NCBI RefSeq assembly: GCF_000233715.2
Contig: NC_021184.1
Span: 2,256,001-2,320,000, forward strand
DNA from: Desulfoscipio gibsoniae DSM 7213
Lineage (GTDB): Bacteria > Bacillota > Desulfotomaculia > Desulfotomaculales > Desulfallaceae
Reading direction: 5' to 3'
Length of the DNA: 64,000 bases
Made by a program: the position numbers and the translations under genes. Within the stretch, counting starts at the first letter, position 1. The number at the start of each line of letters is the position of its first letter. Shown here piece by piece: positions 35,400-46,301 of the stretch. The notes below the pieces were generated by a model. The model was given only the letters and a program-made list of their open reading frames with translations, had not been told where the DNA came from and searched no databases.

Positions 35400-35955
35400 T
35401 TCAAACGCAGCTGTTTGAAGAGGGCTTCTTCAGCCGGGTCTTGTTTGGCCTGCTGGTAATGCTCTATTACTCTTTCTATCTGGGCTTTTCCTGTTACCGG
35501 TCACTTTAAAATAGACTATATAACAATCACCCGGTGCGTATGTGGCGGCTTCCCTTAAGCGCTGCACATTAATTGTAGATGAGCTAAATGTGTACCTTAC
35601 ATCAAGAAATGTACAGATGGCATCAGCTCTACCCTCAGCTTTACCCTCGGCTTTTGCGCCGGCTAGCATTGAGATTTCATCCCTGACAGCCTTTTCCCTA
35701 AGCTCGTAGAGCCTGCGCTCCTTCTTGTTCTTCAAGAAGATCTGCTCAATGGTCAAAGCTTTCCGAATTCCGGGGTTTCCCATGGCGATTTCCTCCATTT
35801 CTTCTCCTTGAATATTGTTGAGATAAAGCAACCATTCTTCCAAGCCATTCTGTGGCTTGCGCTTTAGCTTGGTAACCTACTCCAAATCTAGGAAATAAAT
35901 TTCCAGATCATCGTTCAATAACTTTCCTGTCTCATCCTCCCTGATGTGGAAGGTG
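35400..35955 (-). pseudogene. Rpn-family fragment fused to another gene fragment
   Basis: Bases 35590-35955 match the middle and start of the C-terminal part of the Rpn gene (EEIAMGNPGIRKALTIEQIF), broken at both ends. The left part (35400-35590) carries remains of a second, frameshifted gene (LREAATYAPGDCYIVYFKVT, then QIERVIEHYQQAKQDPAEEA) that I cannot identify. The open frame across the junction is a chance fusion. The remaining 35183-35400 gap is AT-rich with no gene. Confidence 0.7.
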
Positions 35956-37045: not shown

Positions 37046-37723
37046 TCATCCAGCAGTATGCTCAAGGCGGTTTATGTAAGCGCCCATCCTACCCCTCTCG
37101 CTGTAAAAGTCCTCAAGGGCCTGATTGACAACGGCAATGTTGTCATCATAGGAGTTATTTAGTATATTGACCGCACTCAGAGCAAAATCCTGATCCGCAC
37201 TGGCCCCCAATATGTCGGCACTCATGTTGTGAAACTGTATGTACATCCCCTGTCCGGCATTAGCCCCCAGCTGAAGCCAAAGTCCCTTGCTCGCATCGGA
37301 GTCACAACTGCCATCGAGGAGCTTCCTTGTATTAAACTCTGTTCTGTTTGATACTCCCCCGATTTCCTCAATAAGCTAGTCAATTTCTTGCTGAATAGTT
37401 CTTTTGTCAGCATCGCTTAATGTTCCGCTGTGCCCTTGTATCACAAGTTCCCTGATTCGCTGTATCATAGCGTGGGTCTCGTTTAAAGCACCCTCGACGG
37501 TTTGGATCATGGAGATACCATCCTGGGCATTCCGGCTGGCCTGCTGCAAGCCCCTGATCTGTGCCCACATTCTCTCACTGATGGCCAGACCGGCGGGATC
37601 GTCCGCCGCGCGGTTTATTCTGAGACCTGAAGATAATCTTTCTATGGCTCTGGTAACCATGTTACCGGCTATGGCCATGTTTCTGTAAGCAGTCAGTGCG
37701 GCTATATTGTGGTTGATTCTCAT
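37046..37723 (-). pseudogene. Short flagellin gene with an in-frame amber codon, C-terminus missing
   Basis: From the ATG at 37723 the frame encodes flagellin D0/D1 ([40 protein letters not shown]). At 37373-37375 a single TAG stands where flagellins usually have Gln (EID-stop-LIEEI). The same frame then continues for another 109 codons (VSNRTEFNTRKLLDGSCDSD; GANAGQGMYIQFHN) and stops at RLEHTAG. The last 50 or so residues needed for polymerisation are absent. An AAGAAGG site precedes the start. Confidence 0.85.
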
Positions 37724-37796
37724 AATCTTAAACCTTCTTGGAAACAAGTCAGAGGGAATTATTTCAAATTAAGAAATGTCCCCGATACCCAGATAC

Positions 37797-38897: not shown

Positions 38898-39854
38898 TTA
38901 CTTTACAGCATTATCTATGATGGCTTCAGCATCTTCTAATAAATCGGCGGTATAAATCTTGTTGATAATCCTATCTAAAGCCTCTAATTTGTTGATATGC
39001 TTGACTTTTCTCTGTAACCCTTTTGAAGCATCACCAAACCTCGCATTAAGAAAGGTACAGATAGCATCAACTTTACCTTCAGCCCTACCTTCAGCCCTAC
39101 CTTCAGCCCTACCTTTAGCCTCACCCTCGGCCCTTGCACCGGCTATCATGGAGATTTCATCCCTGACAGCTTTTTCCCTAAGCTCGTATAGCCTGCGCTC
39201 CTTCTTGTTCTTCAAGAAGATCTGCTCAATGGTCAAAGCTTTCCGAATTCCGGGGTTTCCCATGGCGATTTCCTCCATTTCTTCTCCTTGAATATTGTTG
39301 AGATAAAGCAGCCATTCCTCCAGGTCATTCAAGGGTTTGCGCTTCAGTTCGGTAATCTTCCTCAGCTCCAGGAAATGAATTTCCAAATCGTCGTTCAATA
39401 ACTCTCCTGTTTGGTCTTCCCTAATGTGAAATGTATAGTGGTATTTACCGGTATCTTCAAACCAGTTAAATCCGAGTATGTTAATGGTGATAGTTTTTCT
39501 GAGATTTATAAAGTCTTTACCACTGCCCAATTGCCCGTGATATAGCCCTGCCCAGTAAAATAAAGTTCTTTTGTCAATATTGTATTTATTTACCACCTGT
39601 ACTTCTATATTCACTAATGTACCGGTTGCTGTTTTGGCCAGAATATCAAGTCTGGCGGCTTTGTCCAGCAAGTATTTGGGGTCCAACTCCCGATCCAGCA
39701 ACTCCACTGATGTTAATTCTTGCCCTGACGATAGTTTCAGCACTGCGTTAAGAAAACCTATAAGTGCTTCTTTGCCCTCTTCCGAGCCGAATATCCTTTT
39801 GAATAAGTAATCGTTAGTTCGGTTGATTCCTTTTATCTCTGTCAAATCCGGCAC
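38898..39854 (-). CDS. Rpn-family recombination-promoting nuclease / putative transposase
   Basis: The only complete copy in the window, 318 residues. The N-terminal PD-(D/E)XK domain (GINRTNDYLFKRIFGSEEGK; RLDILAKTATGTLVNIEVQV with D and E-x-Q) is followed by GLYHGQLGSGKDFINLRKTI and a C-terminal regulatory part with an (AEG[KR]A) tract of five units. RpnA-type proteins are DNA endonucleases that raise RecA-independent recombination in E. coli. The GTG start has GGAGGGA upstream. At least six fragments of it lie elsewhere in 21.6-36 kb. Confidence 0.88.
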   Translation of the reverse strand: MPDLTEIKGINRTNDYLFKRIFGSEEGKEALIGFLNAVLKLSSGQELTSVELLDRELDPKYLLDKAARLDILAKTATGTLVNIEVQVVNKYNIDKRTLFYWAGLYHGQLGSGKDFINLRKTITINILGFNWFEDTGKYHYTFHIREDQTGELLNDDLEIHFLELRKITELKRKPLNDLEEWLLYLNNIQGEEMEEIAMGNPGIRKALTIEQIFLKNKKERRLYELREKAVRDEISMIAGARAEGEAKGRAEGRAEGRAEGKVDAICTFLNARFGDASKGLQRKVKHINKLEALDRIINKIYTADLLEDAEAIIDNAVK

Positions 39855-40053
39855 TCCCTCCGGTAGGTTCTACTACCCTTATTATACCAGATTTAAAAGA
39901 AAGGCTAAATATAGAATAACTATGGTGTAGAAATGGAGATGGGTTGGTTAGCAGGTGTAGCTTATGGTTCGGGAATTGAAAAGCAAGGCCCAGGAAATAG
40001 TCCGGCAGCTGGTGCGTGAAACTTTACCCATTACAGTTGCTACCGCAGGTACT

Positions 40054-40248
40054 TCTGAGGCCCGAAGATAATTTCTCTATGGCTCTGGTAACCATGTTAC
40101 CGGCTATGGTCATGTTTCTGTAAGCTGTCAGTGCGGCAATATTGTGATTAATTATCATGGTTGTGGTCCTTCTTGGAAATAAGTTAGACGGATACAGGCA
40201 GGTGTCTGCCAGTTCAATTGTCTTTTTGGTTACATCAGTGTAAATCAA
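40054..40248 (-). pseudogene. Chimeric scrap: small motility gene 5' end joined to flagellin 5' end
   Basis: The first about 17 codons (YTDVTKKTIELADTCL) match the start of the gene at 38381..38672. After a short spacer an ATG at 40158 opens flagellin ([20 protein letters not shown], then [14 protein letters not shown]), which ends after 35 codons. In 37-38.7 kb the same two genes are adjacent in the same order, so this is a collapsed duplicate of that pair. Confidence 0.65.
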
Positions 40249-40688: not shown

Positions 40689-41528
40689 CTAAAAATTTTC
40701 TTGGGGTGTATATGAAAAATACTGCAAAATATCATCAAAATCCTTTTTAAATGGCCTTGCCAATGTGATTTTTCTGCCATGCTGACCAAACAAAAAGACA
40801 AGTCCCATTAGTGTATCTTCTTCCTTATAGATTCTTATGACATGGTTAAATTGTTTATATATTTGTTTATCCAAATGTGCAATAGGTAACTTGACACCAA
40901 TATCCGAAAAATTAGTACCATGTAAAGCAAATTCTCTAGCTTGATTAAGTTCTAAATCCTTTAAGTAAGTAAGACCTCTTTTAAATCCAATTAAATTCAG
41001 ACATGATTTAACTAATGAACGTATAACCATTTTTTCTTGGTCGGAAGAACAATGTTGCATACCCGTCCCTAATACTATATCATCGGAGTTTGGAACATAA
41101 TAACCATCAAATTTATCCGACTTGTTACTGGATAAAAACTTGTGTTTTTGCTTTTTATCGTGAAATACTCTAATCTTTCGCTTATCATTTAATTCTATAA
41201 CTTGATTCTTTATTCTAACACCATTGCTTGATAAAGTTGCTCGAACTTTTCCTGAAAAACCCAAGATAGAAAAATCATCAAATTCAATTTCATTTTTTGA
41301 ATATTTTTTGTTCTTCTCTGGCCTTATCCCAAATAAAATTGTAAGTGGTTTATATTCCTTGATCAAATAAAGATCTGCTTCTCTATTGAGTCGATCATTA
41401 CATTCCTTACAAACATTTAAAAATGTTATTCTTCCACCCAATGCATCTGGAATTATATGATCTCCTTTTGCTCCCTTGCTAGCAATAAATTCCTTATCGC
41501 AGTAATAACAATATAATTCTGTCTTCAT
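40689..41528 (-). CDS. HNH endonuclease domain protein next to the intron-bearing flagellin
   Basis: A 279-residue protein with an N-terminal zinc-type HNH domain: CYYCDKEF, then KGDHIIPDALGGRITFLNVC and KECNDRLN (C-x2-C ... DHIIP ... C-x2-C-N). The rest is basic and AT-rich and not recognised. It starts 66 bp beyond the flagellin terminator, same strand. HNH proteins include group I intron homing endonucleases that may be encoded outside the intron; the position suggests that, but it could also be a defence or stand-alone nuclease. Confidence 0.8.
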   Translation of the reverse strand: MKTELYCYYCDKEFIASKGAKGDHIIPDALGGRITFLNVCKECNDRLNREADLYLIKEYKPLTILFGIRPEKNKKYSKNEIEFDDFSILGFSGKVRATLSSNGVRIKNQVIELNDKRKIRVFHDKKQKHKFLSSNKSDKFDGYYVPNSDDIVLGTGMQHCSSDQEKMVIRSLVKSCLNLIGFKRGLTYLKDLELNQAREFALHGTNFSDIGVKLPIAHLDKQIYKQFNHVIRIYKEEDTLMGLVFLFGQHGRKITLARPFKKDFDDILQYFSYTPQENF

Positions 41529-41636: not shown

Positions 41637-44119
41637 TTAACGGAGCAGTTGCAGTACGTTTTGAGGTTGCTGGTTTGCTTGCGGACCACCGGTTATCTTT
41701 CGATAACCGCCAGACTATATCTTCAACCATCTTGTTTGATGGCTGTCGGGTGCTTCGGGGAACCTCTTACCCCTACGGACCTCATCACCGTACCCGGTGG
41801 GGCCGGGTTTAGGTGGTACGTCCTAGTCGTTGAACCTTCTCCATCCTTTCGGAACAGGAGCTCGGCTGCTGATTATCCAATCTGCCCTGCTTTTCAGCCT
41901 GTCACGTCTACCCTTTCGGATTACGTTGTAGGGAGGACAGCTCTTTAGGAAGTTCCAGCAATTCACCCGATTTGCGCTTAAAGGTTACCCTTTAAGGGAC
42001 CCTGCCAACATTACCTGAGGAGTTGTAAAACACCTTGGGGTTGTTGTTGGGCTTGAGCCAGCATGGAATTGGCAGCCTGTGAGAGGATATTCATCTTGGT
42101 GTACTCCATCATTTCTTTGGCCATCGTCGCCACAACAGGTTTCCCTGTTGACCAGACTATATCTTCACCCTCAGCTTTACCTGTTAAGGGCCGGGCACTT
42201 CGAACACCATTCGGTGCTCTACGGGCTTCATCACCATACCTTATGGCTTAGGTGGTATGCCCTAGTCGTTGAACCTTCCCCAACCTTTCAGTCCAGGGGC
42301 TCGGCTGCTGATTGCCCAATCCTTTCATTTTTTAAACCATCACGTTTGCCGTTTCCGGCTGCGTTGTGGTATGAAGGGCTCTAAAGGGTTTTCCAGCAAT
42401 TCACCCGGTGATACTCCTGACCGTTACCAGTCAGGACGACTGTGCCTTGGCTTAAGCTGCCTCGGCATAATCAACGTCGCGGATACGGGATTCGGCGGCG
42501 GACAGGTTTTCGGAAGAGGTGCCCAGGTTGTTGATGGTGTGCTCAAGACGGTTCTGGTAGGCACCGAGTTTGGAACGTTCAGCGGAAACCTGTTCAATTG
42601 CATCATTGATGACATCAACTGCCGCAGTTGCCTTTTCATGGTCGGATACATCCAAAGCCTTAAACTTGGCAGTATTATTAGTTCCATCAGTTACAACGGC
42701 ATCTGTTGTATAATAGGCAGTTTTGCCTGACTTTGAAACTACTGTCGTGCCATCTTCAGAAGCCACCTGCAGCGCATCGGAGCCGGCTCTCATATCTCTG
42801 ATATCGATGGTCATACTCTGTCCCGCATTTGCGCCAACTTGGAAGGTGGCTTGGTAGTCTTCTTGTACTCCACCATCTGTAATATTTAGTTCAGCCGTTG
42901 CACCTGTTGCCGTGGTGCTGATGGTTATAGTGCCAGTGCCATCATCAGTAGCTGTGATGCCCTCTACTTTGTCATTTAGTTGAGCGGCGACAATATCTGC
43001 CAATACATCCTCATTATTAGCAGTTGCATTAATTGCATCACTTATGTTTATGCCGATAGCATCGCCGTTATAAACACCATCGTTAGCATCGTAAAACTCA
43101 ACTTGTTGACCATTAATTGTGAAACCTTTGCCAACTAAAGCTTCAATTGCAGCACCGGTGGTGTAAGACGTAAGGTCCAAAGTTGTAGTAGCCGCAGTAG
43201 CCGCAGTAGTAGTACCTACAGCATTGGTCAAATCTTCTGTAGCATTTGCAGCTGTGCTATAGGCAGTTTCAACATAATTACTAATTGTTCCAGCAGCGCC
43301 ATCAAAGTCACCACCAGCTACAGCCTTAATTGTAACAGTATCCGTACCATCAGAGACTGCAGTATAATTACCTTTTAATACTTCATTTGAATCTATGATT
43401 TCTTGTAATGCGTTAGCATAACTATCTGCTGTGTTTTGCACAGTACTACCACCCGAAGCAATATTGACCGAAGCACTAGTACTAGTGACATTATATGCTG
43501 CAGAATCATCGTAATTAGCATCATTGGCCTTCCAAGTTACTGTCAAGGTAATCCCATTCAAGTCAATGCTTAAAGCATCATCTGCAGCTGCGCCTGCGTT
43601 TGCGAATGCAACAGTTGCAGTTGCTTGGGTATGTTGTGTGGCAGTTCCAGTATTAGCTACATCAGTTGAGAATAAACCAGATTTAGCTAAATTAACCCTA
43701 CCATCACCCTTTAACAAACTCTGGGTGTTAAACTCAGTGGTATTACCGATTCTATTAATCTCAGAAGTCAGCTGGTTGATTTCCTTTTGAATCTCATCAC
43801 GGTCAACGTTTACGTTGGTATCACTGGCGGCCTGGGTGGCCAGTTCACGCATACGTTGCAGAATGCTGTGGGTTTCATTCAATGCACCTTCAGCAGTTTG
43901 GATCATAGAAATACCATCCTGGGCGTTACGGCTGGCTTGATCCAAGCCGCGAATCTGAGCCCTCATTTTTTCACTAATGGCTAAACCTGCGGCATCGTCA
44001 CCGGCCCGGTTGATGCGTAGACCGGAAGACAGCTTTTCCAAAGATTTGTTACCGATGGCGTTGTTAGTACTCAACTGACGATACGTGTTAAGCGCTGCAA
44101 TATTATGATTAATAATCAT
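41637..44119 (-). CDS. hag: Flagellin, split by two group I introns (three exons)
   Basis: Exon 1 (42470..44119) encodes residues 1-550: D0/D1 N-terminus ([20 protein letters not shown]), variable domain (about 155-420) and C-terminal D1 to SRIRDVD. Read through, it stops five codons later (YAEAA). Exon 2 (42056..42124) gives [20 protein letters not shown] plus MLA. Exon 3 (41637..41681) gives [14 protein letters not shown]. Joined, these make a canonical 587-residue flagellin ending RDVD-MAKEMM...VLQLLR. Splice sites are inferred from U-G pairs at the 5' sites, terminal intron G and reading frame. An AGGGAGGAA site precedes the ATG; the leader has CsrA-type sites. Confidence 0.9.
41682..42055 (-). 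ncRNA. Group I intron 2 of flagellin (ORF-less, carries an alternative flagellin tail)
   Basis: About 374 nt. It has the same core as intron 1: GGGTGAATTGCTGGAA, AATCAGCAGCCGAGC, GGTTCAACGACTAGG (5' strand of P7) and AAGATATAGTCTGG (3' strand of P7), then a P9-like GGTTATC-GAAA-GATAACC hairpin and an 8-nt tail ending in G. P1 pairs exon GGCU with intron GGUC (U-G at the site). The first 45 nt after the 5' site encode [14 protein letters not shown] and a TAA, a full alternative tail. No endonuclease frame. Confidence 0.85.
42125..42469 (-). ncRNA. Group I intron 1 of flagellin (ORF-less)
   Basis: About 345 nt. Core elements in order: GGGTGAATTGCTGGAAAACC, a GCCG-GAAA-CGGC hairpin, GGCAATCAGCAGCCGAGC, GGTTCAACGACTAGG, a CATACC/GGTATG stem, AAGATATAGTCTGG, and CAACAGG-GAAA-CCTGTTG (P9). 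GACTA and TAGTC form P7. P1: exon GTTGAT pairs with intron GTCGTC with a U-G at the splice site, extended by TATGCC with GGCACA. The intron ends in G before ATGGCC. Excision joins GTTGAT to ATGGCC, giving RDVD-MAKEMM. No protein frame inside. Confidence 0.88.
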
Positions 44120-45026: not shown

Positions 45027-46301
45027 TTATTTCAGGAAATTTAGCAGACTTATATTCATTATAGTTGCGCCTACAGCCAGTGACGCGTTGTAAGACAGTG
45101 CCTGCTGACTTACTTCGATGGATAACTCAGCTATGTCGGCACCTTCTATTTTGTTCAGGTTATCTTTAAGTATAATTTCCTGATCCAAAAGTTGGTTCTG
45201 TAAAGATTCAAAGTGCCTGTAGCGCGCACCGGCCTGGACTCTATGCTGCAACAACATATCCATTTTATCTCCAAGCTCTGCAATACTTTTCTGCAACCCT
45301 GCTGTATCATCGTCCCGCAACCTGTCGCGCAATGCAAACAGTGCGTCAAAAATACCCCGGTCCGGGTTATCATCGGCCCTTGGATTTGTTGAGTCATACA
45401 CTATATTATCTATCTCAGCACGTCCAAACACACCCAGGCTATTATTAATTGTAATAGTATATTCAGCACCGTCCTCTATATCGGGCGGAGTAGGAAAAGT
45501 TATTTTCAGTCCTTCCAGTTTACCATCTGTGACACTTAAAACATTATTTTCAAAAGTATAATCTATTATTAAATCATTGTTTTCTATTATTCCATTCAGT
45601 TCAAGCTGTTTTTCTATACTTACAGTATCATTATCAGGATCAGGTAGGTTATTAAATTTTACTTTAATAATACCAACGATATTTTTATCATCCTGTCTTT
45701 GAGTGAGGACAAGTGCAGAGGATGATTTTGCTGTGTCATTGATTGCTTTAATTTCAAAACCACTGGTCACTCCCGGCGCATCGATGCGATAATCGGTACC
45801 GGCCAGCACTTCACGGTATATACCATTGAAGTCGCCATTATAAATAATCTTATCACCAACACGTTCAAAAGGCGGGCGGTTATTTTTTGTACCCGCGTAG
45901 ATGTATTTGCCACCAACTGTTGAGTTTGCCAAATCCACCGCCTGGTCAATCATTTTATCAATTTGCTCTGAAATGGCACCCTTGTCATCGGCGTTATAAG
46001 TACCATGAGATCCTTGCAAGGCATATTCTTGAGCCTTGGATAATAAGTCACCCAGAGTGCCCATAACAGTGTCGTTCATATCCAGATAGCCCAAGCCATC
46101 CTGGATATTGCGATCGTACTGATCATTGTAAGACAAATTACCCTTGATGCTCATGAACTGTCCCATTACATTGGGATCGTCACTGAGGCGTAACAGCCGC
46201 CTGCTGGTGGCCATCTGTTCCTGGCTGCGGGCCAGCTTACTCAGATTGGTCTGGATACTGTTCAATATATTGTTGGCCATGTAAATATTGGTTATACGCA
46301 C
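45027..46301 (-). CDS. flgL: Hook-filament junction protein FlgL
   Basis: A 424-residue flagellin-like protein: N-terminus MRITNIYMANNILNSIQTNL and SRRLLRLSDDPNVMGQFMSI, C-terminus ADIAELSIEVSQQALSYNAS. It forms the second junction ring between hook and filament. The length is larger than E. coli FlgL because of a middle insert (about residues 180-290). A GTG start follows GGGGGAC. It is 20 bp after flgK. Confidence 0.95.
   Translation of the reverse strand: MRITNIYMANNILNSIQTNLSKLARSQEQMATSRRLLRLSDDPNVMGQFMSIKGNLSYNDQYDRNIQDGLGYLDMNDTVMGTLGDLLSKAQEYALQGSHGTYNADDKGAISEQIDKMIDQAVDLANSTVGGKYIYAGTKNNRPPFERVGDKIIYNGDFNGIYREVLAGTDYRIDAPGVTSGFEIKAINDTAKSSSALVLTQRQDDKNIVGIIKVKFNNLPDPDNDTVSIEKQLELNGIIENNDLIIDYTFENNVLSVTDGKLEGLKITFPTPPDIEDGAEYTITINNSLGVFGRAEIDNIVYDSTNPRADDNPDRGIFDALFALRDRLRDDDTAGLQKSIAELGDKMDMLLQHRVQAGARYRHFESLQNQLLDQEIILKDNLNKIEGADIAELSIEVSQQALSYNASLAVGATIMNISLLNFLK

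Follow-up and report, generated by a model that had tools for sequence, protein, structure and literature searches.

Group I introns have been described in the flagellin genes of Geobacillus stearothermophilus and other thermophilic bacilli, where they are reported to be self-splicing (Hayakawa and Ishizuka 2009, 2012, via PMC3984707 and PMC4853749). The flagellin gene of Desulfoscipio gibsoniae DSM 7213 likewise corresponds to a Firmicutes flagellin gene interrupted by group I introns, but it differs by a tandem pair of introns, a spare gene end and a degron-like tail, none of which is mentioned in the available parts of these two citing accounts. The closest functional analogue of the tail is found in yeast HAC1, whose intron encodes a degron at its 5' end according to the part of PMC8002603 that is available; in both cases, a short C-terminal tail read from the start of the intron would remove the product of unspliced RNA. 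HAC1 is however no relative, since it involves another intron type, another protease system and a eukaryotic stress regulator. The commonest tail among related flagellin introns (YALAA) shares a C-terminal ...ALAA with the ssrA tag of tmRNA (AANDENYALAA in E. coli), for which the variants LVA, AAV and SVA are in use (PMC9382460, available part). LVA and SVA occur in a few of the introns. The ssrA tag is added in trans to stalled ribosomes, whereas the flagellin tail is encoded in the gene's own intron.

A group II intron with alternative splicing is reportedly present in a surface-layer gene of Clostridium tetani, which would likewise be a case of bacterial introns close to the 3' end of a gene for a surface protein and giving alternative protein ends. 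That system is said to be of group II with several 3' exons, while in the flagellin gene it is L1 of the intron itself that holds the alternative end, and the resulting protein is nearly the same. In E. coli, tandem group I introns have been engineered to produce exon skipping, according to the available part of PMC10136302. The DucS RNA was considered as a parallel and dropped because self-splicing is excluded by its authors in the accessible part of PMC10504365. Among the literature matches listed, from a coverage that leaves out most subscription papers, no report of bacterial introns that encode tags or carry a duplicated gene end was found; flagellin group I introns themselves are already known, but fail-safe frames in L1 are not described for bacterial introns in the literature searched.

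Layout of the interrupted flagellin gene

The window analysed here is a stretch of 64,000 nt of the D. gibsoniae genome, in which the flagellin gene spans positions 44119-41637 of the minus strand, with its ATG at 44119 and its final stop ending at 41637. Read straight, the frame stops after 555 aa at ...RDVDYAEAA (ORF translation) and covers 54 of the 86 positions of the Flagellin_C profile, so that the C-terminal part is indeed missing, as indicated by a first-pass annotation based on the sequence alone. This annotation had proposed two tandem group I introns devoid of endonuclease genes and called for a covariance search; cmscan of the window returned two full-length RF00028 matches on the minus strand (model 1-253; cut-off 50 bits), at 42479-42133 (73.1 bits, E 1.2e-16) and 42030-41691 (88.5 bits, E 2.9e-21). 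Both introns are without any long frame and thus without an in-intron homing endonuclease gene, as proposed, and the 4.86 Mb genome contains no third RF00028 match.

Exon and intron boundaries (Table 1) were set from conservation among relatives. Splice-site signs consist of GAT before the 5' site and a final G at site A, and of GCT and a final G at site C (each in 111/111), in agreement with the U before each 5' site and the G at each intron end put forward earlier. Exon-guide pairing was judged by eye and is short at site C (ca. 3-4 bp). Both introns are predicted to splice in vivo.

Table 1. Features of the interrupted flagellin gene of D. gibsoniae (window positions)
Feature	Position	Strand	Evidence
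Exon 1, ends ...RIRDVD	42470..44119	-	Flagellin_N 1-136/139; boundaries conserved among relatives
Intron 1, group I, site A, 345 nt	42125..42469	-	RF00028 73.1 bits; site A boundaries recur in relatives
In-intron frame of intron 1, YAEAA and stop, ssrA-like tail; within hairpin, stop in loop	42452..42469	-	103/110 site A tails end in AA; RNA fold
Exon 2, 23 residues	42056..42124	-	Boundaries conserved among relatives; domain restoration
Intron 2, group I, site C, 374 nt	41682..42055	-	RF00028 88.5 bits; GCT and final G in 111/111 site C introns
Substitute C-terminus (14 residues and stop) in loop L1 of intron 2	42011..42055	-	Full end in 111/113 classified site C introns
P1 extension of intron 2, 5' strand CCAACA	42045..42050	-	Strand-pairing comparison; coordinates counted
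P1 extension of intron 2, 3' strand TGTTGG	42005..42010	-	Strand-pairing comparison; coordinates counted
Exon 3, native gene end, 14 residues	41637..41681	-	Boundaries; intronless genes; domain restoration

Predicted removal of both introns results in a protein of 587 aa in which Flagellin_C coverage rises to 86/86, so that joining the exons restores a flagellin in frame as had been predicted. When intron 2 is retained, the product is still a 587-residue flagellin with 86/86 Flagellin_C positions, which differs from the doubly spliced product by two residues; for the C-terminal 107 aa, the profile score is 117.7 bits when doubly spliced versus 114.4 bits with intron 2 kept. Skipping of exon 2 is in frame, yet it gives only 52/86. 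Both terminal regions are therefore complete once intron 1 is removed (Flagellin_N 1-136/139; Flagellin_C 86/86), with or without removal of intron 2. As intron 2 brings its own copy of the gene end, intron 1 is the only one that has to be spliced out for the protein to be complete. The initial view that the missing end lies in two downstream exons holds in that exons 2 and 3 complete the protein, but not in full since a complete end is already reached by reading from exon 2 into the first part of intron 2. A GC-rich hairpin followed by a T-run, seen by eye 3' of the stop, corresponds to the expected terminator.

Other flagellin-related sequences occur nearby. A damaged copy (37307-37747, minus strand) has a Flagellin_N match (37307-37717), an in-frame TAG and no C-terminus; a second damaged copy, an N-terminal fragment (40024-40248, minus strand), falls below the Pfam cut-off; and another Flagellin_N match is contained in the ORF 45027-46301, which we take to be flgL. 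The interrupted gene thus appears, by inference, to be the sole intact flagellin gene of the genome. The damaged copy with the in-frame TAG is flanked by a 318-aa ORF (38898-39854, minus strand) and by a shorter partial copy (35430-35843, minus strand) with which it has a long stretch in common, both presumably belonging to a transposase-associated nuclease family. Directly behind the flagellin gene, an HNH_5 endonuclease-like ORF (40689-41528, minus strand) was detected that is absent from 59 of the 60 genomes searched and that has no PADLOC match.

Flagellin introns in related genomes

An RF00028 match was found in 21 of 150 related genomes, D. gibsoniae included, and many of these matches were placed in flagellin by tblastn and inspection, at insertion sites designated A (RDVD/MAKEMM), B (after AUGCU) and C (MLA/Q), with site C sitting four nucleotides from site B. 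The 3'-junction pattern of sites B and C occurs in at least 117 stretches of GTDB contigs, mostly from Bacillales and Clostridia among the matches listed, and no B or C intron with the exact pattern was found in viral contigs. A looser pattern applied to 263 loci gave 142 distinct B/C introns, of which 11 were too near the locus end and 11 had no flagellin end in the 420 nt examined, although four of the latter (L073, L100, L111 and L131) have a full end further up. The remaining 120 comprise 111 site C introns with a complete end, seven site B introns and two site C exceptions.

Site A introns are frequent: a search by the 3' junction only detected them in 39/193 genomes of one family and 46/299 of one order. 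In the phylum, 7/398 genomes gave a site A intron by such a search. The site A sample, assembled from the B/C loci, the 3'-junction searches and 20 further stretches, contains 114 distinct introns with enough upstream sequence, five truncated ones being left out. Among 97 distinct site C regions (window included), 37 have a site A intron as well, 55 have none and five are unclear, so that the tandem arrangement, at first regarded as unusual, recurs in 37 of 92 classifiable genes. All these samples are shaped by the choice of pattern and by the number of matches listed, and homologous introns are not independent of one another.

An ssrA-like tail in introns at sites A and B

An in-intron frame is present in 110/114 site A introns, with 69 reading YALAA and with endings in AA (103), VA (5), AV (1) and TA (1). 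Four give no tail, one (L124) because of an N run and three (L179, L189 and L217) that look like remnants; in these three, the 3' half of the intron and the following flagellin exons stand beside unrelated genes, as in remnants or moved cassettes. The putative degron of D. gibsoniae intron 1, YAEAA, has Glu where ssrA has Leu. Longer site A variants keep the ending (YDLAAA, YDLIAA, YVLSAA), or nearly so (YVLSVA). At site B, 6/7 tails end in AA, the exception (L013, EVLAK) having no ordinary exon in front. In the loci obtained with the 3'-junction pattern of sites B and C, 32/33 cut flagellin frames end in AA, versus 1/330 other long ORFs of the same loci, a control from which the site B frames L092 and L135 were moved by hand (3/332 before).

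A tmRNA (RF00023) was found in 22/22 genomes queried, and its tag, identified by ARAGORN in 16 cases and by eye from translated frames in six, ends in AA in all 22. The D. gibsoniae tag, ANEENYALAA, ends with YALAA, the commonest site A tail, and in L101 a tag in ...PALAAA occurs with the tail YDLAAA. A detailed match between tag and tail is absent, as the tail is YDLAA or YDSAA in two genomes whose tags end in ...SLAAA, and genomes with ...LAFAA or ...LAYAA tags have YTEAA, YVLSAA, YVLSVA or YAKAA.

Two further group I introns (L015 1501-1834 and L028 1501-1795) are located in a gene that is presumably dnaE, where the frames running into the intron end in ...RWALIA and ...RWALVA, near ssrA variants; the two introns are related and the likeness may be due to chance.

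A second gene end in introns at site C

The frame crossing the 5' site of intron 2 encodes a 14-residue flagellin end and a stop, and exon 3 encodes a 14-residue end again. In all but two of the 113 classified site C introns, the complete end and its stop precede the guide sequence; the exceptions are L052 (two nonsense codons) and L057 (FEQIAA and stop). The codon before the 5' site is invariably GCT in site C introns, versus 18/27 in intronless flagellins of one family (collected from 30 loci by a Flagellin_C search followed by regex reading). This same-codon comparison was preferred as a control over the bias of nearby Ala codons (GCT in 129/560), which is a poorer one. All 27 intronless genes read QANQ, as does exon 3, for which the search pattern itself favoured QANQ, while position 2 of the intron copy is Ser in 81/110 introns. 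Judged by this comparison, exon 3 is the native gene end and the intron copy is the substitute.

In codons 8-14, the intron copy has a pN/pS ratio of 0.118 and exon 3 one of 0.215, compared with 0.76 and 0.95 for pseudo-codons of two other intron segments (120 B and C introns); codons 1-7 of exon 3 were not used as evidence because the search pattern fixed most of them, which inflates their conservation. By this measure, coding constraint acts on both copies of the gene end. Within one gene, the two copies have 69% DNA identity and their synonymous sites are saturated (pS 0.79), a divergence that would hinder recombination between them. The start of the intron also pairs with the bases located between the stop and the guide sequence, with a score of 13.5 for own strands versus 10.9 +/- 0.23 for swapped ones (97 introns, 200 swaps, maximum 11.5), so that the loop of a covarying P1 extension holds the greater part of the substitute end.

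The introns and their boundaries, the in-intron frames with their conservation and the hairpins that enclose them are thus all features visible in the sequences. As far as sequence comparison goes, the in-intron frames are not plain readthrough, and the conservation of their protein sequence over many genomes is the main finding.

Proposed role of the in-intron frames and alternative explanations

Because ribosomes translate the unspliced RNA, a group I intron in a bacterial protein gene is considered costly. Flagellin RNA is heavily translated, and export or assembly would probably suffer from a flagellin devoid of its C-terminal helix. We propose, with a probability of roughly 65%, that each of the two D. 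gibsoniae introns bears in L1 a translated fail-safe, an ssrA-like degron in intron 1 and a substitute C-terminus in intron 2. That flagellin group I introns as such use L1 as a fail-safe against their own splicing failure, by an ssrA-mimicking degron or by a spare gene end, and so lower the cost to the host, is also held to be probable, if slightly less so. The L1 stretch, between the 5' splice site and the guide sequence, would be meant for translation while the intron is still in the RNA. With intron 1 unspliced, the ribosome would add the five-residue ssrA-type tail and stop, and the truncated flagellin would be passed to ClpXP-type proteases for degradation; with intron 2 kept, the substitute C-terminus and its stop would be used to give a whole flagellin, making retention harmless. 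In both introns, the ribosome would stop ahead of the guide sequence and the ribozyme core, leaving the RNA free to fold.

A rather unlikely alternative is that the gene contains two ordinary group I introns and that the AA tail merely results from an RNA hairpin whose loop contains the stop and which is required only for release of the ribosome before the ribozyme core. Introns of this kind usually have a stop shortly downstream of the 5' site (PMC3984707, available part). In the majority of 101 site A introns that were folded, moreover, the sequence 3' of the stop forms pairs with codon 2, codon 4 and a part of codon 5, so that RNA structure does account for part of the tail conservation. 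In a tree of intron bodies with 104 five-codon site A frames, however, codon 4 changed 13 times with four amino-acid changes and codon 5 changed 43 times with a single one. The three bases of codon 4, paired to a nearly equal extent (in 94, 99 and 97 of the 101 introns), changed 1, 3 and 10 times and the first G faces C in 28 cases and U in 66, a pattern that points to coding constraint. Variants three bases longer retain the ending, and at site B an identical ending comes with another hairpin, both of which speak against a mere by-product. Codon 1 of these frames is TAT in 103/104 and shows no third-base change although the codon is largely unpaired, and therefore may possibly have an RNA role beside coding.

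For intron 2, the frame in front already encodes a full flagellin, the guide pairing is short at site C and a few damaged exon 3 copies exist (L037, L081 and L141; a damaged intron copy is found in L052), all of which would fit an intron that is never spliced and sits behind a complete gene, with exon 3 as baggage of the element. This is nevertheless considered unlikely, since exon 3 is intact in 110/111 site C introns and under coding constraint in the codons left free by the search, since it is exon 3 and not the intron copy that matches the end of the intronless genes, and since the GCT and the final G are invariant; in L052 and L057, moreover, splicing would be needed because the intron copy cannot give a normal end. 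A regulatory instead of a fail-safe role of the retained intron or of the two ends, for instance in controlling motility by temperature or in providing two filament isoforms, is suggested by the temperature-dependent splicing reported for flagellin introns of thermophilic bacilli (available part of PMC4853749), but appears quite improbable given that the two ends of the D. gibsoniae gene differ by just two residues and that the exon 3 type of end is found in 27/27 intronless genes of one family. Finally, the HNH gene, which gives an HNH_5 match of 60.9 bits and begins shortly past the end of the flagellin gene, might move the endonuclease-free introns in trans. Trans-homing was sought in 60 genomes and in viral contigs and was not supported: D. 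gibsoniae is itself the only one of the 60 with the gene although G001, G010, G022, G025 and G056, which have flagellin introns, are among them, and viral contigs contain no relative of it, so that this possibility is regarded as very remote.

The fail-safe reading would bring the two designs together as answers to one problem, that of translation, which the introns seem to meet in two ways, by tagging the failed product at sites A and B or by supplying a spare gene end at site C. Introns of the latter type are easily overlooked because a normal-looking gene stands in front. If this reading is true, the ssrA-like tail would be the bacterial equivalent of the degron in the HAC1 intron. The intron would also be less of a burden to its host, and this could be the reason why it persists, endonuclease-free, in a gene that is so heavily translated.
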